From NCBI GenBank assembly GCA_000739535.1, contig DF820464.1, positions 466,722 through 507,660 on the forward strand: a stretch of DNA of 40,939 nucleotides, in the 5' to 3' direction. This stretch comes from Candidatus Vecturithrix granuli. GTDB lineage: Bacteria > Moduliflexota > Moduliflexia > Moduliflexales > Moduliflexaceae. Of the stretch, positions 8,603 to 30,614 are shown in pieces. The notes under the pieces are model-generated. The model was not told where the DNA came from. It saw nothing but the letters and a program-made list of their open reading frames with translations, and did not search any database. A program made the translations under genes and the position numbers. Position 1 is the stretch's first letter; the number at the start of each line of letters is the position of its first letter.

Positions 8603-9889
8603 TTACTTCCTGAACCGGATCGGAACATACGCCGGAAGATATTTCTCGACTAACCGAACGTTCAACCGCGCAAATCGTTGTAAGCCGTTTTCCAATCGGA
8701 TTTCAGGCCAACCTTGCCCGATTAACGGCTCGGCATAGCGCACAAAATCATCAGTCACGTCCAACCCGTCTGGTGTAATCCAGGGCGACGGCAAATGTCG
8801 GGCGGAATTCGCCACTACGTCCAGCGGTACGTGATCGAAATAGGCTTGATACGAGTCGCCCGGTTTCCGCAAAATCGTCGCCATCCAGCCGGTGCCCTGG
8901 TTGATAGCGATGTCAATGGCGTGTTGTCCGACATCATAAGCCTCCTGAATATCTACAGTGGAGGCAAAGATCGAGGTTGAGCGTTGAATCACGCCGGGCA
9001 ACTGTCCGGTAGCCTGGCCGCGGGCTTTGAGTCCCACACTATTCAAATAATTCGTCACGATCTGCGCCACCGTGTTCTGACTCGCGCCGTATTCAATGTG
9101 ACCAAAGCCGTCGCGGGCTTCCCCCAGGCTGCCCACGTCAAACCCTTCGCTCACCACGACGATGCACCGTCCGCTTTTGAGCAATTGCCGGTTGACATTT
9201 TCCGCCAGACTTTCCAGGGTATGGTGGGATTCTGCCAGATAAATCTGTAACGGCATCTCACGTTTTGGATCGGCTAACCGCGCCGCCGCCGGAATGTAGC
9301 CGGATTTTCTGCCCATCGCCTGCAACACCGACACTGGTTCTGACACGCACATGCCTCGGTTTTCTTCCTCAATGTTTTGGATCAGATACGCCCAATACCG
9401 GGCGGCGCTGCCATAGCCCGGCGTGTGATCAATAATAGTAAATTCCTCGTCACCGAGGTCGTTATCTATCGTTTTTGGGATACCAGTTACGATTAGCTCC
9501 AGTCCTTTTTCTTTCGCTAGACGGGAGACTTTATGCGCCGTATCCATCGAATCGTTGCCGCCAATATAAAAGAAATAGCCGACTTGATGCGCACGCATCA
9601 CGTCAATAATCCGGGCGTAATCCTCAATTTGCTCATCTTTGAGTTTATACCGGCACGTGCCAATTGCACCTGCCGCCGGAGTATAGCGCAGCAGTCCAAT
9701 TTCATGGCGAGGCTGCTGCGTCAGATCGATCAATTCTTCCAGCAAAACGCCTTCAATCCCATGCCATCCGGCAAAAATTTTGCCAAAATGATCGGGGTAT
9801 GCCAGGCAGCCGTCAATCACGCCCTGTAGCGAGGCATTAATCACCGGCGATGGTCCTCCGGATTGGGCAACAATCACATTTTTGTTCAT
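8603..9889 (-). CDS. 6-phosphofructokinase, pyrophosphate-type active site
   Basis: A 428-aa PfkA-superfamily enzyme converting fructose 6-phosphate to the 1,6-bisphosphate. The N-terminal GGPSPVIN loop (11-18), YIGGNDS (108-114) and PKTIDND (138-144) are the active-site motifs. In ATP-dependent enzymes the second and third would read GGDG and PGTIDND. The Asp after GGN and the Lys in PKTIDND are the residues that mark pyrophosphate dependence. The first Asp of the usual GGDD is Asn here. The conserved fold begins at the ATG at 9889, so the open frame further upstream, which runs into a palindromic repeat, is not coding. It is the third gene of a leftward group after the aminotransferase and oxidoreductase, separated from them by a 299-base repeat-filled gap, and may be transcribed separately. 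The phosphoryl donor is inferred from residues only. Confidence 0.9.
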   Translation of the reverse strand: MNKNVIVAQSGGPSPVINASLQGVIDGCLAYPDHFGKIFAGWHGIEGVLLEELIDLTQQPRHEIGLLRYTPAAGAIGTCRYKLKDEQIEDYARIIDVMRAHQVGYFFYIGGNDSMDTAHKVSRLAKEKGLELIVTGIPKTIDNDLGDEEFTIIDHTPGYGSAARYWAYLIQNIEEENRGMCVSEPVSVLQAMGRKSGYIPAAARLADPKREMPLQIYLAESHHTLESLAENVNRQLLKSGRCIVVVSEGFDVGSLGEARDGFGHIEYGASQNTVAQIVTNYLNSVGLKARGQATGQLPGVIQRSTSIFASTVDIQEAYDVGQHAIDIAINQGTGWMATILRKPGDSYQAYFDHVPLDVVANSARHLPSPWITPDGLDVTDDFVRYAEPLIGQGWPEIRLENGLQRFARLNVRLVEKYLPAYVPIRFRK

Positions 9890-9897
9890 GAGGTTCA

Positions 9898-10150
9898 GGA
9901 GTGCTAAAGCTTGCTTTAGCAGCCCGGCCCCACCCTCCCCCACTCTCCTCTGAATTAGCAGGGCTGTTAAGTTCTCCGTGGAGTCCACCTTCCGAGGTGG
10001 CCTCCACACGTGATGTCTTGCACATCCTCAGATGGAGGCCACCTTGAAGGTGGACTCCATCATGGTTTTCGAGAATTTAACAGCCCTGCCCCTAAGCCAG
10101 GAGGAGGGGTCGGGATTGTGCCGCGTTGCCAAAGCGAGCTTTGATACTCT
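9898..10150. repeat. Large mosaic palindromic element (MITE-like), copy 1
   Basis: The two halves of this stretch are imperfect reverse complements. CAGGGCTGTTAAGTTCTC at 9959-9976 matches the complement of 10071-10088. The inner pair TGGAGTCCACCT (9979-9990) and AAGGTGGACTCCA (10047-10059) continues the stem. The outer pair, with AAAGCTTGCTTT and AAAGCGAGCTTT cores, lies near 9905 and 10130. It fills the gap between the oxidoreductase and phosphofructokinase genes. The same end sequence bounds a second element at 20535-20678. No transposase lies within, so it would be non-autonomous if mobile. Confidence 0.7.
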
Positions 10151-10188: not shown

Positions 10189-11334
10189 TTACAAAACGAT
10201 TTTTTCAACGCTTTTATTGTGGTGCGACTTGAGCGCAGCGGTTTGGAGCGCATGAGAAAGACGAGTCTCTTCCGGTCTCACACAGCCCCATACCGGTTCA
10301 GTCTTCCCTTCAAATTCTTGCAGGAACGCCGCCCACATTTGCAGAATGGCATCAGGAAACCCAAATTCAAAAATTCCTGCAGTAATACCTGGAATTGGCG
10401 ACGTATATCCAAGATCGACGCGCGACCACGCCTGTTCTTTCGCTTTGGTTTCTAAAAAGTAGAAAGATTTCGGATCACGAGTGGTAAATTTGGCGGAAGC
10501 GAGCAGTCCATCCACCTCGATATACCAGGTATTGGTAGCTCCCGGAGCTAATCGTTTTGTTTCCAAATACATCGGAAACAGATTTCCGTCGCGATCCGTT
10601 GTTTCGCAGACTAACGTGGCGTTGTCGTAGGTCAGACAGGGCGCCATGCCACCTTTGCCGTCCGGTCGTTCTGTGACAATCTTCGACAGTACCGCATAAA
10701 CCCGCTGCGGCGTCCAGCCCATTCGAAATGGAATATGCTGTGTGTGCAGCCCCAAATCGCCCATGCAGCCGTATTTGCCGTTATATTCGATCATGCGTTT
10801 CCAGTTAATCGGTTTGGTCACATCCATGTCGCTGGAATGGTGAAATCCGGATCGTACTTCGATAATTTTGCCGAAGCGATGCTCTTTGATCCACTGGATC
10901 ACCTTTTGCGCCCCCGGAAAATACGGAAATTCCGAACTACAGCGCACAAACAGATCGGGATGTGCCTGAATCGCCTGCAAAATGCGGGTATTCGCCGCTT
11001 GATCGATCCCGAACGGCTTTTCGCCCATCAAATGCTTGTTGGCGCAGATGACATCTATATAAATTTGTTCATGAAGATGATGCGGCACCGCGCAATAAAT
11101 CGCCTCGATCTCCTGGGACTGGAGGAGATCGCGATAATCCTGTGTCGCAATTTTAATGCTGGGGAAAAAATCGAGAAACCATTGATGCGTCTGCACGTTC
11201 GGATCGCAGATGCCGACGATTTCCGGGACAGGTCCTTGGGTCAGCAAATGGCACCAGCGCGCCGCTGCGCTGCCAAATTCTCTGCCCATCAACCCCAGCC
11301 CAATCACGCCAAATTTGACTGTTTTTCTTGCCAT
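10189..11334 (-). CDS. Gfo/Idh/MocA-family NAD(P)-dependent oxidoreductase
   Basis: A 381-aa cytoplasmic oxidoreductase. The N-terminal Rossmann domain carries GVIGLGLMGREFG (about residues 8-20), and the family motif GEKPFG sits near 103-108, where the Lys belongs to the catalytic site. The C-terminal half (about 130-370) is the alpha/beta substrate domain. Family members oxidise or reduce sugars, inositols and sugar derivatives; the substrate here is not evident. The start is supported by AAGGAGGAGGG nine bases upstream. Only 14 bases separate it from the stop of the upstream aminotransferase, so the two are almost certainly one transcript. The context suggests a keto-sugar made or consumed next to an amino sugar or polyol step. 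The C-terminus runs to the edge of a repeat-rich gap. Confidence 0.88.
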   Translation of the reverse strand: MARKTVKFGVIGLGLMGREFGSAAARWCHLLTQGPVPEIVGICDPNVQTHQWFLDFFPSIKIATQDYRDLLQSQEIEAIYCAVPHHLHEQIYIDVICANKHLMGEKPFGIDQAANTRILQAIQAHPDLFVRCSSEFPYFPGAQKVIQWIKEHRFGKIIEVRSGFHHSSDMDVTKPINWKRMIEYNGKYGCMGDLGLHTQHIPFRMGWTPQRVYAVLSKIVTERPDGKGGMAPCLTYDNATLVCETTDRDGNLFPMYLETKRLAPGATNTWYIEVDGLLASAKFTTRDPKSFYFLETKAKEQAWSRVDLGYTSPIPGITAGIFEFGFPDAILQMWAAFLQEFEGKTEPVWGCVRPEETRLSHALQTAALKSHHNKSVEKIVL

Positions 11335-11348
11335 GCGTTCCCTCCTCC

Positions 11349-12911
11349 TTATAAGTGTTTCAGAGCATCATCCATCTTGTCAATTAAAAATTCGATCATT
11401 TTGGGGGTACAGGTCAACGGCAATTTGGTCAAGGCCGATGGCGGACAATTGGCTTTATAGGTCTGCGCGCTGATGTCAATGCCCTGATCTGTCAGCAGTT
11501 TGCAGAATTTGACGGCGCTCTCGGTGGAATAAAAATATAGTGAGGATAAATGCCGCCGGCCTTCAATTCGTTCCAGATGCTGAGCATATTTCTGGGTTAA
11601 TTTTCGGAGGGCGTTCTCATAGAAATCGCCTAAATTTTTCGTATAGTCTTTATTTGCCATCGCAAACTCGATCGTAATGAGATACGCGAGGGACGCCAGT
11701 TCTTCCTGCCCGTTGGTGACTAACGCGCCAAATTGATTCAAATTATCCATCTGCGCCGTCGTAATCAGGCGCGATGCCGGGTATTCACCGCCCGGAAAGC
11801 CTTTGCCCAGCGAAACTAAGTCCGGGGATAACCCATACTCCCGGAATAGAAACAGTTCCGGCGACCAGATGCAGGATTGAATTTCGTCCACCATCGTGGG
11901 AATGTCACGTTCCTGGCAGACGGCATATACATGATGTAGGAACTTTTCAGTTAACCGGACGCCGCCATAATTCATGAGAATGATTTCATGGAAGAATCCG
12001 GCGATTTTGTAGTTGCCTGCATCATACTCTTTAACCAATTGATCGAAATGTTCCGCATCGTTAATTCTCACTGATTTTACCACCATTGCACCTGCGGTTT
12101 CTAATTTCGCAAAAAACGCGGGCCACATCCCTCGCATCATCTGAGTCAAGACGGTCGTGCCATGATAATTAGCTTCTTTACCGCCGTTATAATCGGCAAT
12201 AACGAGTACTACCGGGATTTTACCTGCGTATAGTGGCTCATTGAAGGTTTTATCTAATTGATAAAATCGGGCGAGCATCATTTTTAATGCTGCCTCGACC
12301 GCTAAACTCCCGGTTTCCAAATTCAACACGCGATTCAGCACATGCGGCTCAGTGGAATTTAAGACACACTGAAGCCCGCTGACATCCTGTTTATCAAGCC
12401 CGTTGATCAGACGGATAAGTTCTTGCTCTAACAAGCGTGTGATATAACCACGCGTGCTGTTATGCGTTGCATTTGGGACGCCTAATTTTTTAGCATAATC
12501 AATGAGATTATAGCCTGGGAAACTATGCCCTAACGAAGCGTGGTAATGTTCACTTTTGGTAATGAGGTACAGCTTGCCATCCTCGCCGAGCCGAAAGCAG
12601 CCGAAACCGGAGAGGGGCGACCAGCGGGTTTTAGTCGCTGCAACAAATGATTTGGTTGATGCTCCTTGCGCTGAGCGCGGGTACCCCGGGCACACTTGCT
12701 TGCCGATCTGGTCAACTAATTCATCGCCGCGCTGTTGAAACCACGCCGGATAAAACTCGACCGGCTGGTCAGCCAGCGCAAGCCAGGTTTGGGCATGTTC
12801 TCCTGTGAGAAAGGCTTTCGCCTCGCAGACTGCATGAAGATACTCTGCGCCTAACAAGTCATTTAACGAACGTGTCACGTTTGTTATCGGAGCTTTTTGA
12901 AAATCACTCAT
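11349..12911 (-). CDS. Class III (fold type I) PLP-dependent aminotransferase
   Basis: A 520-aa protein of the ornithine/GABA/glutamate-semialdehyde aminotransferase superfamily. VDEIQS near 338-343 holds the Asp that binds the pyridine nitrogen, and SLGKGFPGGEYPAS holds the Schiff-base Lys370. The protein is 60-100 residues longer than typical members, mostly through an N-terminal extension. The start is fixed by AAAGGAGT seven bases upstream. It leads the leftward operon with the Gfo/Idh oxidoreductase and faces the sugar-isomerase operon across a shared control region. The coupling to a dehydrogenase suggests reversible conversion of a keto-sugar, or an aldehyde, to an amine. The substrate and amino donor cannot be read from the sequence. 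A mutase role, as in glutamate-1-semialdehyde aminomutase, is possible. Confidence 0.85.
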   Translation of the reverse strand: MSDFQKAPITNVTRSLNDLLGAEYLHAVCEAKAFLTGEHAQTWLALADQPVEFYPAWFQQRGDELVDQIGKQVCPGYPRSAQGASTKSFVAATKTRWSPLSGFGCFRLGEDGKLYLITKSEHYHASLGHSFPGYNLIDYAKKLGVPNATHNSTRGYITRLLEQELIRLINGLDKQDVSGLQCVLNSTEPHVLNRVLNLETGSLAVEAALKMMLARFYQLDKTFNEPLYAGKIPVVLVIADYNGGKEANYHGTTVLTQMMRGMWPAFFAKLETAGAMVVKSVRINDAEHFDQLVKEYDAGNYKIAGFFHEIILMNYGGVRLTEKFLHHVYAVCQERDIPTMVDEIQSCIWSPELFLFREYGLSPDLVSLGKGFPGGEYPASRLITTAQMDNLNQFGALVTNGQEELASLAYLITIEFAMANKDYTKNLGDFYENALRKLTQKYAQHLERIEGRRHLSSLYFYSTESAVKFCKLLTDQGIDISAQTYKANCPPSALTKLPLTCTPKMIEFLIDKMDDALKHL

Positions 12912-13012
12912 TATAGACTCCTTTCATCTGTATGGATTATTTCACATAACATTCTTATCATTTTTACTGTGCATTAATTTTATCCTACCTCATAGTATGA
13001 TCATGATTATTA

Positions 13013-13041
13013 CGTCAAGCAAAATTTGATTGATTTAATCA
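13013..13041 (-). promoter_or_regulatory. Operator plus -35 of the aminotransferase operon
   Basis: On the minus strand the order is TGATT-AAATC-AATCA (13041-13027), eight bases, then TTGACG (13018-13013). Thirty-four bases here match the promoter of the binding-protein gene (19090-19124) at 29 positions, including the palindrome and its distance from the -35 box. No good -10 hexamer is evident 16-18 bases downstream. A nearby ATGATCATGAT may be a further half-site. Confidence 0.6.
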
Positions 13042-13098
13042 TAATGTTATTTTTGCTGATTTTATTTAATGATGTTTTGAAGAGTTTTTATGACAAAA

Positions 13099-13127
13099 TG
13101 ATTATATTTTTAAAAAAATGCTTGACA
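13099..13127 (+). promoter_or_regulatory. Partial copy of the operator/promoter module facing the isomerase operon
   Basis: TGATT at 13099-13103 is followed after 18 bases by TTGACA at 13122-13127. That is exactly the TGATT to TTGAC distance in the two full modules (13013-13041 minus strand, 19092-19120 plus strand). The right half AATCA of the palindrome is not kept at its usual place, but AATCA occurs immediately after the -35 box. The -10 element is unclear. The surrounding 12912-13190 is AT-rich and holds no gene. Confidence 0.45.
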
Positions 13128-13347
13128 TAATCATAAAATATTTCAAAAAAGATTTCATCTTATTTAAGGGGGCAAATATGAAGTTTTGACTATCTCGGAT
13201 GCCCTGCTTAATAGCCCTGTCGAATATGCCGGGGTGGTTTTGTCGTAATCTGCAATCTTAATAAAATAATCCCATTTATGTACTCCACTTTCATCCTCCT
13301 CGCCTCGTAGGAGACGGAGGGGTGAGGTCCCCATATAACGTGAATGA

Positions 13348-13384
13348 AGATTTGACAACTTTCCAGAAGTTGTCAAATCTTTTT
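13348..13384 (+). terminator. Intrinsic terminator in the leader of the isomerase operon
   Basis: AGATTTGACAACTT (13348-13361) pairs perfectly with AAGTTGTCAAATCT (13367-13380) across a five-base loop and is followed by TTTT. There is no recognisable gene immediately upstream on this strand. It therefore either ends a short leader transcript or attenuates transcription starting near 13127. Confidence 0.7.
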
Positions 13385-13435
13385 ATAAAAGGAGTTAACA
13401 CGAGCTAACCGCTCACCCGACGCAATGAACATACG

Positions 13436-13500
13436 ATGTAGCGCGAAACTCCAGTTTCGCGACTGTCAACAATGCGCGAAACTGGAGTTTCGCGCTACAT
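13436..13500. repeat. Perfect 26-bp inverted repeat in front of the isomerase gene
   Basis: Bases 13436-13461 are the exact reverse complement of 13475-13500, with a 13-base loop. Each arm is itself nearly palindromic around GCGAAACT/AGTTTCGC. The hairpin ends about six bases before the Shine-Dalgarno sequence of the gene at 13520. No T tract follows. Confidence 0.85.
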
Positions 13501-13519
13501 TTTCACAGGAGAAGTATCT

Positions 13520-14923
13520 ATGCCAATCGCTCAGAAGCCTTTCAAAATTGGGTTGTTGGTAACAGCCCTGTTAGAAGATAAATTCAATAAAACCGGGCAT
13601 ATCCGCGATGAAGCGCGGCGTGTGACCGGGTTGTATGCCGAGAAATTGAGTCAGTTCGGCGTTGTCGTTAATCCCGGCTTTTTTGAATATGAAGATCAGG
13701 CGTTTCAAGCAGCCTCTCACCTGAAAAAAGAAGCGGTGGATGTCATTGTTTTTATCGAACTTGCTTATCAAAAAGGCTTGATTCCCATGCGGGCATTGTT
13801 GCAGTTTGACGTGCCGATTATTATTTGGAACACGCAGCTTATCTCGGAATTTGGCGAAAACGCGGATTTCGATCTCATCATGGTGAATTCGGGGATGGCG
13901 GGGTTATCTGAAGTGACGAGCGCGCTTGTCCGGACAAAGAAGCCGTTTTTCGTCGTGACCGGGAGCATTGATGATCAGAGTGCACTGCGAGAATTGGGTG
14001 AATATATCCAGGCTGCTAAAGCGGTGTACCGTTTGAAAAATTCGAAAATCGGCATCATCGGACACCCGTTTGAGGGTATGACGGATTTGATGCAGGATGA
14101 TTACACCCTCTTAGAAACCTTCGGCTGTAGCTGCTGGCCTGTTGATCACGATGAAATTATTGATGAATACGGCAAGGTGTCGGAAAAAGATGCCGCTGAC
14201 CTCATCGTCAGTCAGAAACAAAAGGGGCGAATGATTGCGGTTGAGCAGGCGATGATGCAGCGCTCTGCCAAATTGGCCGTTGCGCTCGAACGCATAGTGA
14301 GTCTTCATCAGCTTGACGCGGTAGCAGAGTTCGATCAGGTATGGCTGTCGGATGAGCGTGTCGGGATTATCCCATTTTTCGGCACATCGCTTATGGTGGA
14401 AAATCACGTACCGTTTACCTGCGAAGCCGATGTGCTACGTGCTATTTCGATGCTGGTGTTGGAGGAAACTGCCGGACATGCCACCTTTTTAGAACATTAT
14501 ATTCTCGATTATCAACGGGATTTGATGTTTAATTCTCACGATGGGCACGGCAATCCGGCGTTAGCCGACGAGAACTATGGCGTGCAGATCGTTCCGACGA
14601 TTTATTATACCGGCGTCAAGGGAATGGGCGCATCCTTCAATTATGCTTATAAACCAGGCGATTTTACGTTGTTTTCCATCGGCAATATCGGCGGCGGGAA
14701 ATTGCGGTTCATCTCCTCGCAGGGGAAAACGCTCGCTATGCAGCCTCGCAGTATCGCCGCGCCGCAGACCATGTTTCAGTGGGAGGGTGGAAGCATCAAA
14801 GAATTTGCCCGGCAATGGCTGCTTTCCGCTCCTTCACATCATCATACTGGCGCGTATGGTAAGCTTAATCAGATGCTTGAAAAAGTCGCCGCAATGCTTG
14901 GCATTGAGCATGTGATTATCTAA
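13520..14923 (+). CDS. L-arabinose/L-fucose isomerase-family sugar isomerase
   Basis: A 467-aa member of the AraA/FucI superfamily of metal-dependent aldose-ketose isomerases. The metal and catalytic residues of AraA have counterparts at nearly the same positions: Glu302 (CEADV), Glu325 (FLEHY), His340 (SHDGHGNP) and one of His440-442 (PSHHHTG). E. coli AraA has 306, 333, 350 and 450. The segment HPFEGMTD also follows AraA. The start at 13520 is set by AGGAG eight bases upstream; the frame remains open to 13472, but that part lies in a palindrome. It is the first gene of a rightward operon with an FGGY kinase and a second isomerase-like protein. The sugar is not known, because residues outside the metal site differ from true AraA. 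The long leader contains a terminator and a perfect inverted repeat, which suggests leader control. Confidence 0.85.
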   Translation: MPIAQKPFKIGLLVTALLEDKFNKTGHIRDEARRVTGLYAEKLSQFGVVVNPGFFEYEDQAFQAASHLKKEAVDVIVFIELAYQKGLIPMRALLQFDVPIIIWNTQLISEFGENADFDLIMVNSGMAGLSEVTSALVRTKKPFFVVTGSIDDQSALRELGEYIQAAKAVYRLKNSKIGIIGHPFEGMTDLMQDDYTLLETFGCSCWPVDHDEIIDEYGKVSEKDAADLIVSQKQKGRMIAVEQAMMQRSAKLAVALERIVSLHQLDAVAEFDQVWLSDERVGIIPFFGTSLMVENHVPFTCEADVLRAISMLVLEETAGHATFLEHYILDYQRDLMFNSHDGHGNPALADENYGVQIVPTIYYTGVKGMGASFNYAYKPGDFTLFSIGNIGGGKLRFISSQGKTLAMQPRSIAAPQTMFQWEGGSIKEFARQWLLSAPSHHHTGAYGKLNQMLEKVAAMLGIEHVII

Positions 14924-14955
14924 AGAGCTATTCGTTGTTTTGGGTATGTAACTAC

Positions 14956-15083
14956 AAGGATAAGAGATAAGAAAGGGATGTCTGGACGAAGAAACCAGGT
15001 TTTTTCCTAAAAACCTGGTTTCTCGTGTATAATTATTTCTGAAAGGCTATACCACAGGATAAGAGATGAGAAAAGGATGTCTG
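14956..15083. repeat. Hairpin flanked by 29-bp direct repeats
   Basis: The 29 bases at 14956-14984 recur at 15055-15083 with three differences. Between them lies a hairpin: GAAACCAGGTTTTT (14991-15004) pairs perfectly with AAAAACCTGGTTTC (15009-15022). The hairpin belongs to the family at 252-284 and 6113-6145. The whole unit separates the isomerase and kinase genes. A TATAAT at 15027 has no convincing -35 partner. Confidence 0.75.
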
Positions 15084-15153
15084 ATTATTGCCTGAAAACG
15101 AATGTTTTGCCCCAGTTAAAAATTATTTGTCATCACTTATGAGGGATAAATCT

Positions 15154-16665
15154 ATGTATTTAACATTCGATGTCGGCACCACCTCGGTGAAAACGGCTCT
15201 CTATGATGCTGAAGGGCGATTGCGACATAAAGTGATCAAAGATTATCAGTTAGATTCTCCAGCAGTTGGGTGGTATGAAGTCAATCCGGAAATCTATTGG
15301 AAATCGGTTGTCGAAGGGTTTCAAGAAATCCTATCGCAAAGCGGAACGGCCGCTAGCGACATCAAAACCATCGCTGGGTGCAGCCAGGGGGAAACAGTGA
15401 TTTTCCTCGATCAACAGGATCATCCTACCCGTCCGGCGATGGTGTGGTTAGACGGACGCGCTCAAAAAGAGGCCGAGCAATTCAGCGCGATGGTGGACGT
15501 AGAGGAATTTTTCAGCGTTACTGGCATCCCGGAGATTGAGCCGACCTGGAGCGCGTGTAAAATGTTATGGGTCAAGCAGAACCAACCGGATGTTTTTCGA
15601 CAGACCGCCAAATTCATGCTGGTCGAAGATTACATTGTCTATAAATTGACTGGCAAATTTGTCTCGTCGGCGTCGCTGTTGTCGACCAGCGCACTGGTTG
15701 ATATTCATAAAAATATCTATTGGCGTAAAACCGTGGATTTTCTTGGCGTTGAAAGCTGTCTCCCTACAATAATCGCAGAAGGAAGTTTTGTCGGAGAAAT
15801 TCAACCGTCCGTCGCTGTTGATATTGGACTCAAATCCGGCATCCTGGTGTTCAAGGGTTCCATGGATCAAACAATGAGCGCGGTCGGCGCCGGAAATATT
15901 GTGCCGGGTGTCATCACTGAAACCACCGGCACGGCGCTGGTGATTGGCGTCACCGCCAGAACAGTTGATTTCCGAGGAACAGTCAAATTAGCTTATCAGC
16001 CGCATGTCATCCCGGCAACCTATCTGATTTTGCCCTTCGCCCGGACCGCCGGTATAGTCTATAAATGGTTCCGCGATCAGTTTGCCCGGGAAGAAATCCA
16101 GCAGATCGGGGATCTCGAATTAGCCTATGAAGCGTTGAATCAGTTGGCGGCGACAATCCCGGCGGGGGCCGATGGCATCGTCTGCTTGCCTTTTCTGGCG
16201 GGTGGCGCGCCCCCGCCAGACAATAATTCTTATGCCAAAGGGATTATTTACGGACTGACGCTGAAACATGGCAAAGCCCATATAGCGCGAGCGATTATGG
16301 AATCTATCGGTTACCTGTTGAAAAGCATCCTGACACATGTTGAACAGGCCGGGATTGCTATTCAGGAGGTACGTTCAATGGGTGGCGGTGCGCGTTCCGA
16401 CCTGTGGCTGCAAATCAAAGCCGACATCTGTAATTATCCGATTGTCAGAATGCAGGAAGAAGAAACTTCAACATTGGGTGCAGCCATTCTTTCTGCCGTC
16501 AAAGTCGGTGATTACGCCACAATAGAGGACGCAGTTCAAGCTATGGTAAAACCGGGAAAACGATTTCTCCCTAACCCGGAACAGACCGCCATTTATGCCA
16601 GGAGTTATGCGCTATATCGAGATCTCTGCGAGAGTTTGATGCCGCTTTTTAAAAAATATGCGTAA
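15154..16665 (+). CDS. FGGY-family carbohydrate kinase (xylulokinase-like)
   Basis: A 503-aa ATP-dependent sugar kinase. The N-terminus has the phosphate-binding FDVGTTSVKTALYD, the middle carries MVWLDGRA with the conserved Asp that acts as general base in the family, and the C-terminal domain has TTGTALVIG and the adenosine-motif region GGGARSDLWLQIKA. Length is typical of FGGY kinases (about 490-520). The chosen start has GAGGG eight bases upstream and begins directly with the first beta strand; an ATG at 15139 and an upstream frame to 15088 have no conserved sequence. Placed between two isomerase-like genes, it probably phosphorylates the ketose produced by the isomerase. It is closest in style to XylB; ribulokinase and fuculokinase remain possible. 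Confidence 0.88.
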   Translation: MYLTFDVGTTSVKTALYDAEGRLRHKVIKDYQLDSPAVGWYEVNPEIYWKSVVEGFQEILSQSGTAASDIKTIAGCSQGETVIFLDQQDHPTRPAMVWLDGRAQKEAEQFSAMVDVEEFFSVTGIPEIEPTWSACKMLWVKQNQPDVFRQTAKFMLVEDYIVYKLTGKFVSSASLLSTSALVDIHKNIYWRKTVDFLGVESCLPTIIAEGSFVGEIQPSVAVDIGLKSGILVFKGSMDQTMSAVGAGNIVPGVITETTGTALVIGVTARTVDFRGTVKLAYQPHVIPATYLILPFARTAGIVYKWFRDQFAREEIQQIGDLELAYEALNQLAATIPAGADGIVCLPFLAGGAPPPDNNSYAKGIIYGLTLKHGKAHIARAIMESIGYLLKSILTHVEQAGIAIQEVRSMGGGARSDLWLQIKADICNYPIVRMQEEETSTLGAAILSAVKVGDYATIEDAVQAMVKPGKRFLPNPEQTAIYARSYALYRDLCESLMPLFKKYA

Positions 16666-16709
16666 TTCGACAAGGTGAAATTCACCCAACAGAAGGGAGG
16701 AGGAAAGTT

Positions 16710-18062
16710 ATGGAACCATTAAAAGCTGGATATGTGTCTTTCGGTACGATGTATTATAAGCCGGAGAAGTTACGAGAGATCAGCGGCAGGGCCGAACAGC
16801 AGTTAACCGCGAGAGGGATTGAATTGATCAGAACCGATCCGGTGTTTGGCGAAGATCAAGAACCGGACCGGGCGATTCGAGAATTGAAGGCGCAGGAATG
16901 GGACTTTTTGATCGCCAACGTGATTAACTGGATAGACACTCGCGGCGTGATCCGGGTCTTGATGGAATTCCGCGACAAACCGCTCGTGTTGTATAGCTTC
17001 GGCGGATTTACTGAGGGGGATACGCTGATTTGTCCGGCAGCCGGAGCTGGCTCAACCTCTCTGCGTTTCCCATTGGAAAAATGGCGGTTTAAATTTATCT
17101 ATCTCTTTAATCCGCCGGATTCGCCGATGGATGTGGATGGGATTATCAAATTCGGACGCGCAGCGCAGGTCATGAAAAAATTGCGATATACGCGGGTCGG
17201 GATGATCGGCTTTAATGATATGGGGCTGTATTCCACCGATTTTAACGTGACCCGCTTACGCGATAAGATTGGTACCGAAGTGGAGAGTGTTGATCTATTG
17301 CAATTGCAACGCAAAATGGATGTCCTGAGCGCAGAAGTGGTGAAAAACGAAATGCAAAGAATCACGCGTACCTGGGAATATCCGTTAGGCAAGCCGCAAG
17401 ATGAGGTGATTGAGCGCGTCATTCGAATGTATTTGGCAACAGTAGCAATCTGTAAAGAGAAGAAATTCAGCGGATTCTCCTACAAATGCGTGGATGGGAT
17501 TGATCTGGAAATGAAAGCGACCCATGCCGTGCCGTCAGCCCTGGTCGCCTCCGCCGGGTATCCCTATGTTGATGAAAACGACATCGGCAATTTGATTGCA
17601 GAACTAATGTTGAAATGGATTTCAGGCAAGCAGGTTATGTTTTTAGAACATTATGATCATCACCCGGAATGGATTTTACTTGGCGAAGACGGCTATATTC
17701 CTGATGAATTTATTGACGGCAATCCGCAAATTAAAAATATTTCGACCGTCCTGCTCGGCGGAATTGCGCATTGTTCTAAAATGAAAACCGGACGAATGAC
17801 GTTAGCCTGTCTCTCCGAAGATGGCGACGGGTATCGGATGCACATCGTCTCCGGGGAAGGGAAAACCCCGCCGCAATGGGTTGAAATGGGGGTGCCGCTG
17901 CCATCCTGGCCGAGCGTCAAGTTTTTCCCGGATGCCAGCGTGAGAAGCATTTTGAATCATGTCCAATCACAGCACTTTGCCGCCGTTTACGGGGATTATG
18001 TGGATGAATTGCGGTATATATGTGATCTGATGGGGATAGAACCTGTGATAGACAGCAAGTAA
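16710..18062 (+). CDS. L-fucose isomerase-like protein (second paralogue)
   Basis: A 450-aa protein with the three-part fold of FucI/AraA-like proteins. The N-terminal part contains a Rossmann-like segment (GYVSFGTMYYKPEKL), the middle carries MEMKATH-type and DENDIGN segments, and the C-terminal barrel has LLGGIAHCSK and QHFAAVYGDYVDELRYICD, which resembles the end of fucose isomerases. It begins with GGGAGGAGG ideally placed upstream and follows the kinase by 44 bases, so co-transcription is clear. It is not a copy of the gene at 13520; identity by eye is low. Whether it isomerises a second sugar, forms a hetero-oligomer or has another lyase-type role cannot be told. Confidence 0.75.
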   Translation: MEPLKAGYVSFGTMYYKPEKLREISGRAEQQLTARGIELIRTDPVFGEDQEPDRAIRELKAQEWDFLIANVINWIDTRGVIRVLMEFRDKPLVLYSFGGFTEGDTLICPAAGAGSTSLRFPLEKWRFKFIYLFNPPDSPMDVDGIIKFGRAAQVMKKLRYTRVGMIGFNDMGLYSTDFNVTRLRDKIGTEVESVDLLQLQRKMDVLSAEVVKNEMQRITRTWEYPLGKPQDEVIERVIRMYLATVAICKEKKFSGFSYKCVDGIDLEMKATHAVPSALVASAGYPYVDENDIGNLIAELMLKWISGKQVMFLEHYDHHPEWILLGEDGYIPDEFIDGNPQIKNISTVLLGGIAHCSKMKTGRMTLACLSEDGDGYRMHIVSGEGKTPPQWVEMGVPLPSWPSVKFFPDASVRSILNHVQSQHFAAVYGDYVDELRYICDLMGIEPVIDSK

Positions 18063-18100
18063 TGCTTAACGAATTATTTACGCGATGTTTAAGGCTTTGA

Positions 18101-18138
18101 GTTGTTTCGGGAATTTCGTTTCTCATTCCCGAAACAAC
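18101..18138. repeat. 14-bp inverted repeat, also present at 30576-30614
   Basis: GTTGTTTCGGGAAT (18101-18114) and ATTCCCGAAACAAC (18125-18138) form a perfect stem with a ten-base loop. The same arms with an eleven-base loop lie at 30576-30614. It sits after the isomerase stop and before the regulator. No T tract follows, so it is a dispersed repeat rather than a standard terminator. Confidence 0.8.
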
Positions 18139-18203
18139 TGTCTCACAGGCATTTCAGAAAAACCTTGAATATCGAGGGTATTAAAACTCAGGCGCAACGT
18201 AAG

Positions 18204-18989
18204 ATGTCAAAGACCGAAATTCGTACTGTAAAATTGTTAGAAATGCTCCAAACCAATGAACGCGTTGATGTGAAAACCGTGACCGCCGCGCTAGATATTT
18301 CTGAAGCAACAGCCAGACGGCTGTTTGCGAAACTCGAACAAGAAGGCGAGGTCATCCGAACCCTGGGCGGCGTGAAATTAGCCCCACAGTTAGGGCATGA
18401 TTATTCGTTCCGGGTGTCCATCTCCCATCGGAGCAGAGAGAAAACCCAAATCGGCACTGCGGCAGCAGAGCTTGTCAACAGCAATGAACGCATCTTTCTG
18501 GATTCGGGCACCACGGTGCTAAAGTTGGCAGAGGCCCTGGCCGTAAAAATTCACACCGGAGCTATCGAGAATCTGGTGGTAGTCACGAATTCCGTGACGT
18601 TGATAGAAATCCTTGCCAAATCGTGCAAAGTGATTTTAATCGGTGGCGAGATTCGCGCCGAACGCCGGGATGTCTGCGGCACTATCGCCGAAAAAACCCT
18701 GCTGATGTTTCATGTTGATAAAGCCTTCCTCGGCGCGGATGCGATCAGCCTGACATCCGGACTGATGACTACGGATGAGCGCACTTCGAAAATGAGTGAA
18801 ATTATCATCGAACGCGCCGACAAAACCTACATCCTGGCGGATTCTGAGAAATTCCATAAGACCTCTTTTGTCACTTACGCCCCCGTCTGTGCCGCGACAA
18901 CTATCTTGACTGACGACGGCGTTACACCTGAAACTGTAGCGGCTTTTACCGACCTCGGCGCGCAAATAGAAATTGTTCACTCTTGCTGA
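18204..18989 (+). CDS. DeoR/GlpR-family transcriptional regulator
   Basis: A 261-aa repressor with the usual plan. An N-terminal winged helix-turn-helix (about 5-57) is followed by a sugar-phosphate-binding DeoRC domain (about 75-240) containing DSGTTVLKLAEAL, LIGGEIR and FLGADAIS. The start at 18204 leaves five residues before the first helix and gives the family's usual length; the frame extends upstream to 18102, but that part overlaps a palindromic repeat. The Shine-Dalgarno is weak. It lies inside the sugar locus between the isomerase-like gene and the transporter. Family members bind a phosphorylated sugar made by the pathway they control. The likely operators are the TGATT-N5-AATCA palindromes at 13027-13041 and 19092-19106. 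Confidence 0.9.
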   Translation: MSKTEIRTVKLLEMLQTNERVDVKTVTAALDISEATARRLFAKLEQEGEVIRTLGGVKLAPQLGHDYSFRVSISHRSREKTQIGTAAAELVNSNERIFLDSGTTVLKLAEALAVKIHTGAIENLVVVTNSVTLIEILAKSCKVILIGGEIRAERRDVCGTIAEKTLLMFHVDKAFLGADAISLTSGLMTTDERTSKMSEIIIERADKTYILADSEKFHKTSFVTYAPVCAATTILTDDGVTPETVAAFTDLGAQIEIVHSC

Positions 18990-19091
18990 GATGTCAATAG
19001 CGAAACTATTATGACCAAAATAGTCATTTTTATATAAAGTCAATCATTTTCGTTTTTAAAAACAGCTCAAATACGATAGAAGTATTAATTT

Positions 19092-19143
19092 TGATTAAAA
19101 TAATCATATTTTGTTTGACGTAACCAATGTGCCCTTTTATAGT
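19092..19143 (+). promoter_or_regulatory. Operator and sigma-70 promoter of the ABC transporter operon
   Basis: A perfect palindrome TGATT-AAAAT-AATCA at 19092-19106 is followed after eight bases by TTGACG (19115-19120), a 17-base spacer, and TATAGT (19138-19143). The palindrome-to-promoter layout and sequence match the minus-strand module at 13013-13041. The position upstream of the -35 box would suit an activator as well as a repressor. Confidence 0.7.
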
Positions 19144-19226: not shown

Positions 19227-20507
19227 ATGAAGAACATCGGTTTCATCGCACTTCTGATAGTTATGGCAACGACATTCATGTTCACGTCGGTTTTTGCAGC
19301 CGAGGTGACAATCACGCTCATGCGTGATGCGGCGGAAATGCCAGATGAAGTGATTCAAGACTTTGAGCAAAAAAATCCGGGGATTACAGTCAATATTGTG
19401 GAAAATGATCCGGCGAAATTGATGACCATGATCGCCGGAGGCACTGCGCCGGATGTGTTTAGAATCAACGGCATCGGCAGTCCTTACTGGGTTCGAAAAG
19501 GCTTACTGCTGGACATCACGCCGTATCTGGAAAAATCCATAGACATGGATGATCTGTATCCGGTCAATGGCATGTTCCGGTGGGATGGTCAAACGCAAGG
19601 AAAAGGTCCGTATTATGGGATGGTCAAAGACTGGAATCTCGATTACATGTATTTCTATAATAAGGATGCGATGGCGGAAGCGGGCGTGACCCCGCCTAGC
19701 GATGATGTGCCGCTGACGTTCCAGGAATTCACCGACATGATCACGAAGCTTGTCGTTTACAAGGATGGCAAGGCCGAACGCTACGGCTTCGGCTACACTG
19801 ATGACGAGTTTAACGGTTATTTCATGTATCTACTGGCCTCGAAAGGGAAATTCCTGTTCAAAGAGAACGGCACGAAACTGAATATCGAAGACCCGGATGT
19901 CCGCGCCCTGTTTAAATGGTGGTTTGACATGGCGAAAACCCATCATGCCATGCACAATCCGCTTGATCCCGCGCCCGATTGGGATGGCCCATTATTCCAG
20001 GCCGGCAGAGTCGCGCTGCAATGGGACGGCTATTGGTTCGGCCCCATTATCAATGAAGGCGGGAAAATTCCGCCGGATCGTTTCGGGTTCGCTCCTGCGC
20101 CGATCTATGGCGACAAGCGCGTCAACGCGACTGGCGGCGGTACGGGCTATGTTATCTACAGTCAAACCAAAAACCTTGAAGCGGCCTGGAAATTCTATGA
20201 ATACTACATGTTAGGCGATGAAGCTCTGGCGCGCGCCAAAAGTGGCTGGGGATTGCCTGCTCGGAAGTCACTGATGCAGTATGTGCCGCAAGAGACGCCT
20301 TTTGATAAATATCGCCTGGAACAAGTGCAGAAAGAATTGCCGTATCAAATTATTCTCCAGTTCACACCATATTTGAGGGATAGCACGCTCGTCTCCGTGT
20401 ACAATCAGCAGATGGAGCCTGCGCTCAAGGATCAGGTAGATTTTGACACCGCGCTGAATAATCTGGCGCAGCAAATTGATGCGATGATTGAACGGGAACT
20501 GCAATAG
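19227..20507 (+). CDS. ABC sugar transporter, extracellular solute-binding protein (family 1)
   Basis: A 426-aa periplasmic binding protein of the MalE/UgpB type. Residues 1-24 are a signal peptide ending in VFA-AE, a type I cleavage site without lipobox, so the protein is free in the periplasm. The mature N-terminus (VTITLMRDAAEMPDEVI) and AGGTAPDVFRINGIG are family features. Aromatic residues around WNLDYMYFYNKDAM and WDGYWFGP suit sugar stacking. AGGAGGG precedes the start, and the gene has its own promoter at 19115-19143. It is followed by two permease genes. The specificity is presumably the sugar handled by the neighbouring isomerases and kinase. Confidence 0.92.
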   Translation: MKNIGFIALLIVMATTFMFTSVFAAEVTITLMRDAAEMPDEVIQDFEQKNPGITVNIVENDPAKLMTMIAGGTAPDVFRINGIGSPYWVRKGLLLDITPYLEKSIDMDDLYPVNGMFRWDGQTQGKGPYYGMVKDWNLDYMYFYNKDAMAEAGVTPPSDDVPLTFQEFTDMITKLVVYKDGKAERYGFGYTDDEFNGYFMYLLASKGKFLFKENGTKLNIEDPDVRALFKWWFDMAKTHHAMHNPLDPAPDWDGPLFQAGRVALQWDGYWFGPIINEGGKIPPDRFGFAPAPIYGDKRVNATGGGTGYVIYSQTKNLEAAWKFYEYYMLGDEALARAKSGWGLPARKSLMQYVPQETPFDKYRLEQVQKELPYQIILQFTPYLRDSTLVSVYNQQMEPALKDQVDFDTALNNLAQQIDAMIERELQ

Positions 20508-20702: not shown

Positions 20703-21626
20703 ATGAAATTCCTGAACGGTCTTAAAATCAAGCGGGAAACACGGACCTTCTATTCGTTTACCGGGTTATGGATCGTGATGTTCATCTTTTTGAACGTCAT
20801 TCCGATGGTGTATAGCTTTTATCTTTCATTGACGAACTTCGATGGTATGACCGCACCGCGTTTCATCGGGTTTAAAAACTATCTCCGCTTGCTCCACGAT
20901 TATCGCTTTCTGGATTCGCTGAAGCACACCCTGACCTTCACCGCGTTCAATATCATCGCCACCTTAACCGTCAGCTTTCTGCTGGCGACGCTGCTGAACA
21001 AAGAGATCAAAGGCAAGGGATTTTTTCGCAGCGTGCTCTTTCTGCCGTATGCCGTTCCGATTATCGCCACCGTGTTTATTTGGAAGACGGTACTGAACCG
21101 GGAATCGGGCTTTCTAAACATGGTGTTAGGGATGATCCACAGCAATCTGTCGCTGAATTTGCTCGTCACCGTCCCGATGGCGTCACTGATCTCGATGTTC
21201 GTTTGGCAAATCGGCGGAAGCCTGATTATTTTCCTTGCTGGATTGCAGAATATCTCCCGCGATCTGATTGAAGCCGCCGAAATTGACGGTGCCAGTCAAT
21301 TGTGTATGCTCAGAAAAATTACGATTCCCATTATGTCACCGATTATCCTGTATCAGGCGGTGGTTGGCATTATGCAGTCGTTTAGCGTGATTGTGCAGCC
21401 GATTCTGCTGACCTCGTCGCCCGGCGCGGCGTTTACTGCCTTTCTGAATCAACAGCCGCCGTACCAGAATTACTTCACGCTTATTTATGCCTTTCAACAG
21501 GCGTTTACCAATCAAAGTTTCGGCAATGGCATGGCGGCGATTTGGTATATGTTTGCCGTGATGGCGATCCTATCATTCATCTTTTTGCGAGTCACCATGA
21601 GATATGTCTATTATGAATACGAATAG
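20703..21626 (+). CDS. ABC sugar transporter permease, MalF/UgpA-type
   Basis: A 307-aa inner-membrane permease of the CUT1 family with about six membrane helices, the first near residues 20-42. The cytoplasmic EAA loop that docks on the ATPase is clear: EAAEIDGASQLCMLRKITIP at about 196-215. The gene follows the binding-protein gene after a 195-base gap containing a palindromic element, and overlaps the next permease by 23 bases, indicating translational coupling. GAGAGGGG precedes the ATG. No ATP-binding subunit is encoded in the window, so a shared MsmX/UgpC-like ATPase elsewhere is likely. Confidence 0.93.
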   Translation: MKFLNGLKIKRETRTFYSFTGLWIVMFIFLNVIPMVYSFYLSLTNFDGMTAPRFIGFKNYLRLLHDYRFLDSLKHTLTFTAFNIIATLTVSFLLATLLNKEIKGKGFFRSVLFLPYAVPIIATVFIWKTVLNRESGFLNMVLGMIHSNLSLNLLVTVPMASLISMFVWQIGGSLIIFLAGLQNISRDLIEAAEIDGASQLCMLRKITIPIMSPIILYQAVVGIMQSFSVIVQPILLTSSPGAAFTAFLNQQPPYQNYFTLIYAFQQAFTNQSFGNGMAAIWYMFAVMAILSFIFLRVTMRYVYYEYE

Positions 21627-22488
21627 TGATACCATAAACTTGCGCTCGCACGACGCCTATCGACGAGATGTCTGGAAAACCTTGCAGTACGTGGTGCTCA
21701 TCGCAGTGAGCGTGCTCTTTTTGATTCCCTTATTCTGGCTGATATTAAGTTCGCTGAAAACACAGACAGAAATGGTGACGTTTCCGCCGAAATTCCTGCC
21801 GGAAATCCCCCAATTTCAAAATTATCTGCTGGCGGTCACCAAAATTGATTATCTGCGCTATCTGCTGAATACGGTTGAATTAGGGCTGATTTATACCGTG
21901 CCCGGCATCATGTCCGCCGCGCTGTTCGGTTATGCCTTTGCCCGATTCCACGCGCCAGGCAAAAATTTTCTGTTCAATATCGTGCTCGTGCTGATCATGA
22001 TTCCACCGGTGGCAGTCATGATCCCGGAATATGCATTTTTTGCCCGACTGCGCCTCATTAATACCTATTACATCTGGCTACTGTGGGGCATTGGCGGGAA
22101 TCCGCTCTATATTTACCTGTTCAAGCAATTCTTTTCCTATTTCCCCAAAGAATTGGAAGATGCGGCCCTACTGGACGGCTGCTCGCAGCTCGATATTCTG
22201 TTCAGAATTTTCCTGCCTCTCTCAAAACCGATCATTGTCACAGTTTTTTTGCTGTCGTTTCTGTTTGTGTACGGCGATTTCATGGGGCCGGTCATTTTTC
22301 TCAGCGGCAACAATACCACGCTGGCGGTAGCGATGGCGAACGGTTATGTGATTCGCAACGGCATTCTACTTGTTCCGGTGCTGCTCGCCGGAATCGTGAT
22401 TTATCTGATCCCAATCATCCTGATTTTCACCTTCGGGCAGAAATATTACATTCAGGGATTGTTGTCTTCAAGCGGAGTCAAAGGGTAG
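21604..22488 (+). CDS. ABC sugar transporter permease, MalG/UgpE-type
   Basis: A 294-aa second permease subunit with about six membrane helices. It has the EAA-loop variant EDAALLDGCSQLDILFRIFL at about 192-211. It begins inside the end of the preceding permease gene; ATG codons at 21604 and 21613 are both possible. The pair forms the heterodimeric channel for the binding protein at 19227. It is the last gene of the rightward sugar locus and converges on the TPM-domain gene with a gap of 94 bases. The transported sugar is unknown. Confidence 0.93.
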   Translation: MSIMNTNSDTINLRSHDAYRRDVWKTLQYVVLIAVSVLFLIPLFWLILSSLKTQTEMVTFPPKFLPEIPQFQNYLLAVTKIDYLRYLLNTVELGLIYTVPGIMSAALFGYAFARFHAPGKNFLFNIVLVLIMIPPVAVMIPEYAFFARLRLINTYYIWLLWGIGGNPLYIYLFKQFFSYFPKELEDAALLDGCSQLDILFRIFLPLSKPIIVTVFLLSFLFVYGDFMGPVIFLSGNNTTLAVAMANGYVIRNGILLVPVLLAGIVIYLIPIILIFTFGQKYYIQGLLSSSGVKG

Positions 22489-30575: not shown

Positions 30576-30614
30576 GTTGTTTCGGGAATTTCGAAGACTC
30601 ATTCCCGAAACAAC
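30576..30614. repeat. 14-bp inverted repeat, second copy of the 18101-18138 hairpin
   Basis: GTTGTTTCGGGAAT (30576-30589) and ATTCCCGAAACAAC (30601-30614) are identical to the arms at 18101-18138. It lies between convergent genes, where it could end both transcripts, although T tracts are missing. Confidence 0.8.

Follow-up and report, generated by a model that had tools for sequence, protein, structure and literature searches.

Regulators of the DeoR family mostly repress neighbouring sugar genes, several of them bind palindromes, and their effectors typically are phosphorylated intermediates of the respective pathways (PMC2222622, PMC12632272). Sugar regulators of this type are commonly local, those of Thermotoga being autoregulated (PMC3870299, PMC3750489), and the motifs published for the family often are direct repeats with a 10-11 bp period, not palindromes (PMC3870299). 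The locus analyzed here is part of a 40,939-nucleotide stretch of the Candidatus Vecturithrix granuli genome (hereafter, the window). It resembles the E. coli DeoR/deo system, in which a DeoR repressor acts through multiple palindromic operators at the promoters of nearby sugar-catabolic operons (PMC2222622, PMC12632272), the RhaR regulons of Chloroflexales, Rhizobiales and Thermotogales, in which a local DeoR-type regulator is clustered with an ABC transporter, an isomerase and a kinase and regulates from one to several operons (PMC3870299, PMC3750489), and the SugR system of Corynebacterium glutamicum, in which sugar phosphates release a DeoR-type sugar repressor and one group of its sites is located upstream of the promoter (PMC2222622).

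The locus also differs from each of these systems. The palindrome found here is located upstream of the -35 box, whereas that of deo lies over the -10 box, and the recognition helix of the regulator carries RRLF in place of the RRDL or RRDV of most other aligned DeoR proteins. The E. coli deo operator differs in sequence from the module described below. RhaR motifs are imperfect direct repeats with a 10-11 bp period; inspection of the present sites did not reveal two such repeats, and the best-conserved element is a 15-bp inverted repeat, possibly combined with a second subsite. The enzyme set is distinct as well, with an aminotransferase and a Gfo/Idh dehydrogenase that set it apart from the RhaR clusters. 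Finally, SugR recognizes a 21-bp AC-rich motif that is not palindromic, and its targets are distant PTS genes.

The DeoR-family protein of the window (positions 18204-18989, plus strand; 261 aa) consists of an N-terminal HTH_DeoR domain (PF08220; 42.7 bits against a cut-off of 21) and a C-terminal DeoRC sensor domain (PF00455; 146.3 bits against 31.8). The start at position 18204 given in the sequence-only reading, an ATG, is correct; a longer open reading frame from the TTG at 18102 crosses a dispersed hairpin repeat, GTTGTTTCGGGAAT...ATTCCCGAAACAAC, that occupies positions 18100-18140 in the gap between the second isomerase gene and the DeoR gene and makes the DeoR reading frame seem 34 residues longer than it really is. 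The same hairpin is found at 30576-30614, with further copies on contig C19. The regulator gene is embedded in the sugar cluster that it is proposed to regulate, between the two operons with full sites. On the minus strand, a class-III aminotransferase (11349-12911) is followed after 14 bp by a Gfo/Idh/MocA sugar dehydrogenase (10189-11334) and, after a 180-bp gap, by a phosphofructokinase, PPi-type by model (8603-10009), that possibly belongs to the same operon. On the plus strand, the regulator is preceded by a sugar isomerase with the arabinose-isomerase fold (13520-14923; the likely start is the ATG at 13520, with a ribosome-binding site), an FGGY sugar kinase for which the xylulokinase model is nearest (15088-16665) and a second isomerase with a fucose-isomerase C domain (16710-18062), and is followed by the binding protein of a sugar ABC transporter (19227-20507) and two ABC transporter permeases, of the MalF/UgpA type (20703-21626) and the MalG/UgpE type (21604-22488). 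This enzyme set (two isomerases, FGGY kinase, dehydrogenase, aminotransferase and phosphofructokinase) indicates no single known pathway.

The DNA upstream of the aminotransferase operon (site A) and that upstream of the binding-protein gene (site B) had been noted to be nearly identical. In the best 35-base register, 13045-13011 (minus strand) against 19088-19122 (plus strand), 30 of the 35 bases agree, so that the similarity stands; the coordinates originally assigned to site B, 19090-19124, are off by 2 bases and yield 8 matches out of 35. In 400 first-order Markov shuffles of both intergenic regions, the best 35-base match was between 20 and 25. Both sites contain, as had been claimed, the palindrome TGATT-N5-AATCA followed after 8 bases by TTGACG: site A reads TGATTAAATCAATCA-AATTTTGC-TTGACG (13013-13041, minus strand) and site B TGATTAAAATAATCA-TATTTTGT-TTGACG (19092-19120, plus strand), each 5' of the first gene of its operon. 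The site A palindrome occupies 13027-13041 and, if TTGACG is taken as the -35 box, the predicted palindrome centre is near -51 at both sites, with transcription predicted to begin near 12983 and 19150. A good -10 box, TATAGT, follows site B (19138-19143, plus strand; spacer 17), and a possible one with a weak match, TATGAG, follows site A (12989-12994, minus strand; spacer 18). A weak second palindrome, TGACCAAAATAGTCA, is located 80 bp upstream of site B (19012-19026, plus strand); it is a possible auxiliary operator, not significant alone.

The exact pattern TGATTN5AATCAN8TTGACG is present at exactly two places in the 8.38 Mb genome, sites A and B. The palindrome TGATT-N5-AATCA by itself is found at 29 places and hence is not specific. 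When a sequence model was derived from A and B only, the next-best places genome-wide were C14:95935 and C14:85610, with E-values near 1 each, so that these scores prove nothing alone and the strength comes from location: C14:85610 is about 0.2 kb from the start, and C14:95935 about 10.5 kb from the gene, of the sole close paralog of the window regulator (C14:84614-85402; 70% identical), which was identified by a protein search separate from the site model. For two places picked at random, the probability of both lying no more than about 11 kb from the paralog is estimated at (22/8385) squared, or about 7 in a million. Models trained on all four full sites revealed no fifth full module in the genome; all four are located inside two sugar loci, each with one DeoR paralog, and not at random among unrelated genes. 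The palindrome consensus TGAYTAAAATMATCA has five exact genomic matches, four of them in the two loci and the fifth within a coding sequence, translated as LIKIISG, that by eye resembles an ABC ATPase. Weak matches in the same genome (11-15 bits) are mostly within reading frames, and none was recognized as a further member. Among 59 genomes, including this one, a 32-base model gave at best 21.3 bits elsewhere compared with 30-32 bits for the real sites. A control with the reversed pattern is of little use as a measure, since the order of bases in its words differs and such words are scarce in this genome. Given that the module occurs only at two sugar loci, each with a DeoR paralog, shared DeoR control is the simplest explanation, and this genome-wide confinement supports the earlier suggestion that the two operons form one regulon under the DeoR-type protein. 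A common predicted operator is found at the target operons and is absent elsewhere except for the locus of the paralog, as in a local regulon.

In the locus on contig C14, an arabinose-isomerase-type enzyme is encoded directly behind the module P1 (TGACTAAAATAATCA-AATAATGC-TTGACT, with TACAAG as -10 candidate at a distance of 17 bases), and the gene of the DeoR paralog itself has a near copy, TGATTAAAATGG-TTGACATAATCG, pointing towards it. A URO-D-like protein, an amidohydrolase, two permeases, a binding protein and an FGGY kinase are also encoded there. The isomerase, permeases, binding protein and kinase show 22-38% identity to those of the window, compared with 70% for the DeoR proteins. 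Another site, P2 (C14:93978), about 0.3 kb 5' of the binding-protein gene, has a perfect palindrome but no downstream half and appears to be positioned downstream of a TTGACA box. P3 (C14:95935; L073 3935-3975), a full module (TGATTAAAATCATCA-AATAATGC-TTGAGT, with TACATT at a distance of 17 bases), is oriented away from the FGGY kinase gene, into DNA where the same strand has no obvious gene and the opposite strand carries a 142-residue reading frame. The contamination of the genome bin is 10.75%; contigs C14 and C20 carry the same dispersed repeats, so that both loci very likely come from a single genome. Separately, aldehyde ferredoxin oxidoreductase domains are spread over several reading frames at L072 7192-9858, either a broken gene or a sequencing error.

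Over 15 positions of the recognition segment (SEATARRLFA), the two DeoR proteins share 13 residues, including the RRLF motif, compared with 5-6 for the seven other DeoR proteins of the genome. Nearly the same reading heads together with the same putative operator at two loci are what would be expected of a duplicated regulator with a retained operator. No DeoR ortholog with more than about 33% identity was detected in the other genomes, including four genomes of the phylum; relatives on GTDB contigs reach 26-32% identity at most, and none was found on viral contigs. The support for the operator comes from paralogous loci in one genome, and both the motif and this DeoR subfamily appear to be undescribed so far.

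Site C, a partial copy 5' of the isomerase operon (13099-13133, plus strand; TGATTA ... TGC-TTGACA-TAATCA), lacks the AATCA arm. The third site that the sequence-only reading had pointed out is indeed there, with TGATT at 13099, TTGACA at 13122 and the 18-base spacing preserved; the spacing between palindrome and -35 box matches that of the full modules, with the centre again predicted near -51. With a 45-base model, site C scores 12.6 bits versus 41-42 for the full sites and is conspicuous in its neighbourhood but not in the genome as a whole, in which random matches reach 13-15 bits, so that it is persuasive only by its position in front of the operon for isomerase, kinase, isomerase and DeoR protein. 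Because the site is partial, the membership of this operon in the regulon is likely but less certain. The isomerase leader has features of its own. Downstream of site C, an A+T-rich stem of very high stability, with a T run behind it, can form at 13346-13385 (-20 kcal/mol, z -5.1) and is terminator- or attenuator-like. At 13440-13500, GTAGCGCGAAACTCCAGTTTCGCGC faces its own complement in a REP- or MITE-like dispersed inverted repeat; with one mismatch allowed and both strands counted, the 17-base core of this element matches 360 genomic places, and copies also adjoin the C14 binding-protein and permease genes.

Conservation of the module extends past the -35 box. Immediately 3' of the hexamer, the sites continue with TAATAA (A), TAACCA (B), TAATCA (C), TGATTA (P1) and CAATTA (P3), and the extension at site A, taataatcatga (13001-13012, minus strand), fits a weak TAATnA consensus common to B, C and P1. 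The pattern TGNTTGACNTAATCA is found without mismatches at one genomic place, site C, and with at most one mismatch at 21 places including A, B and the promoter of the paralog itself, counts that are descriptive because the pattern was partly derived from the same sites. Conservation through TTGAC into TAATnA suggests that the regulator site and the -35 box probably overlap. The module can be read as a palindrome and, some two helical turns from it, a putative half-site merged with the -35 box; a regulator bound in this manner could cover the box. Thus, of the original proposal that one regulator binds just upstream of the -35 box, the shared control is retained, and the upstream-only placement is replaced by one in which the protein probably covers the box as well. 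A more specific version, namely a composite operator with fixed phase that is read by a small RRLF subfamily of DeoR proteins and kept by two possibly cross-regulating paralogs, is tentative and less likely than not.

From these comparisons, the 35-base site is almost certainly the predicted operator of a local regulator, and sites A and B and, with weaker support, site C are probably operators of the DeoR protein encoded at 18204-18989, acting as a local repressor released by a sugar phosphate. Under this model, the regulator (DeoR1) would bind at the 15-bp palindrome near -51 and probably at a second subsite over the -35 box, and when substrate is lacking would keep RNA polymerase off the aminotransferase-dehydrogenase and ABC-transporter operons; its own isomerase-kinase-isomerase-regulator operon would probably be repressed as well. 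Release would be brought about by a phosphorylated sugar formed by the FGGY kinase; the presence of both a kinase and a transporter gene in the cluster is consistent with such an effector. The C14 paralog, with nearly the same DNA-reading helix, would use the same operator at the second sugar locus. The palindrome centre at -51, which is not the commonest position for a repressor, the orientation of P3, which points to no obvious gene, and the frequent direct-repeat form of published family motifs (PMC3870299) count against this model.

Alternatively, the DeoR protein could act as an activator, placed immediately 5' of the -35 box and in contact with RNA polymerase. The spacing between palindrome and -35 box is indeed fixed in the four full modules and at site C, with predicted centres near -51 at A, B and C, and the DeoR family has activator precedents such as that of the E. 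coli L-fucose operon. However, the conservation crosses the -35 box, P2 seems to follow a TTGACA promoter in a repressor-like arrangement, and the described family members mostly repress (PMC2222622, PMC12632272), which together make activation an unlikely reading. The sites could also belong to a different, for instance global, regulator, with the DeoR association being incidental, given that palindromes of such shape are bound by other families as well and that the module bears what we take to be a loose likeness to the Fur-type 7-1-7 box. Such an assignment is decidedly improbable: DeoR is the only regulator family common to the genes annotated near the sites at both loci, and the restriction of the four full modules to the DeoR loci is unlike the pattern of a global regulator. 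Least credible is that the match stems from a repeat, mobile or dispersed, or from coincidence between two A+T-rich promoters. Dispersed inverted repeats are abundant in this genome, and some are located in these same intergenic regions, but the module exists in only four copies, all intergenic within the two loci, and the similarity stops at the module edge. A chance match between A and B was rejected because the shuffles, with a maximum of 25 of 35 identical bases, never attained 30 and the exact pattern is limited to these two sites. An Rfam search yielded no riboswitch or other Rfam element.

Local repression by the DeoR protein thus remains the preferred interpretation. A local DeoR-type sugar regulon is a well-known kind of system; here, a likely operator, regulator and set of target operons are assigned for an uncharacterized sugar pathway in a sparsely sampled phylum. 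Two regulators with 70% identity and four near-identical predicted operators in one cell constitute a natural experiment on repressor cross-talk and, if the composite operator is real, two different sugar pathways in this lineage may be cross-regulated.
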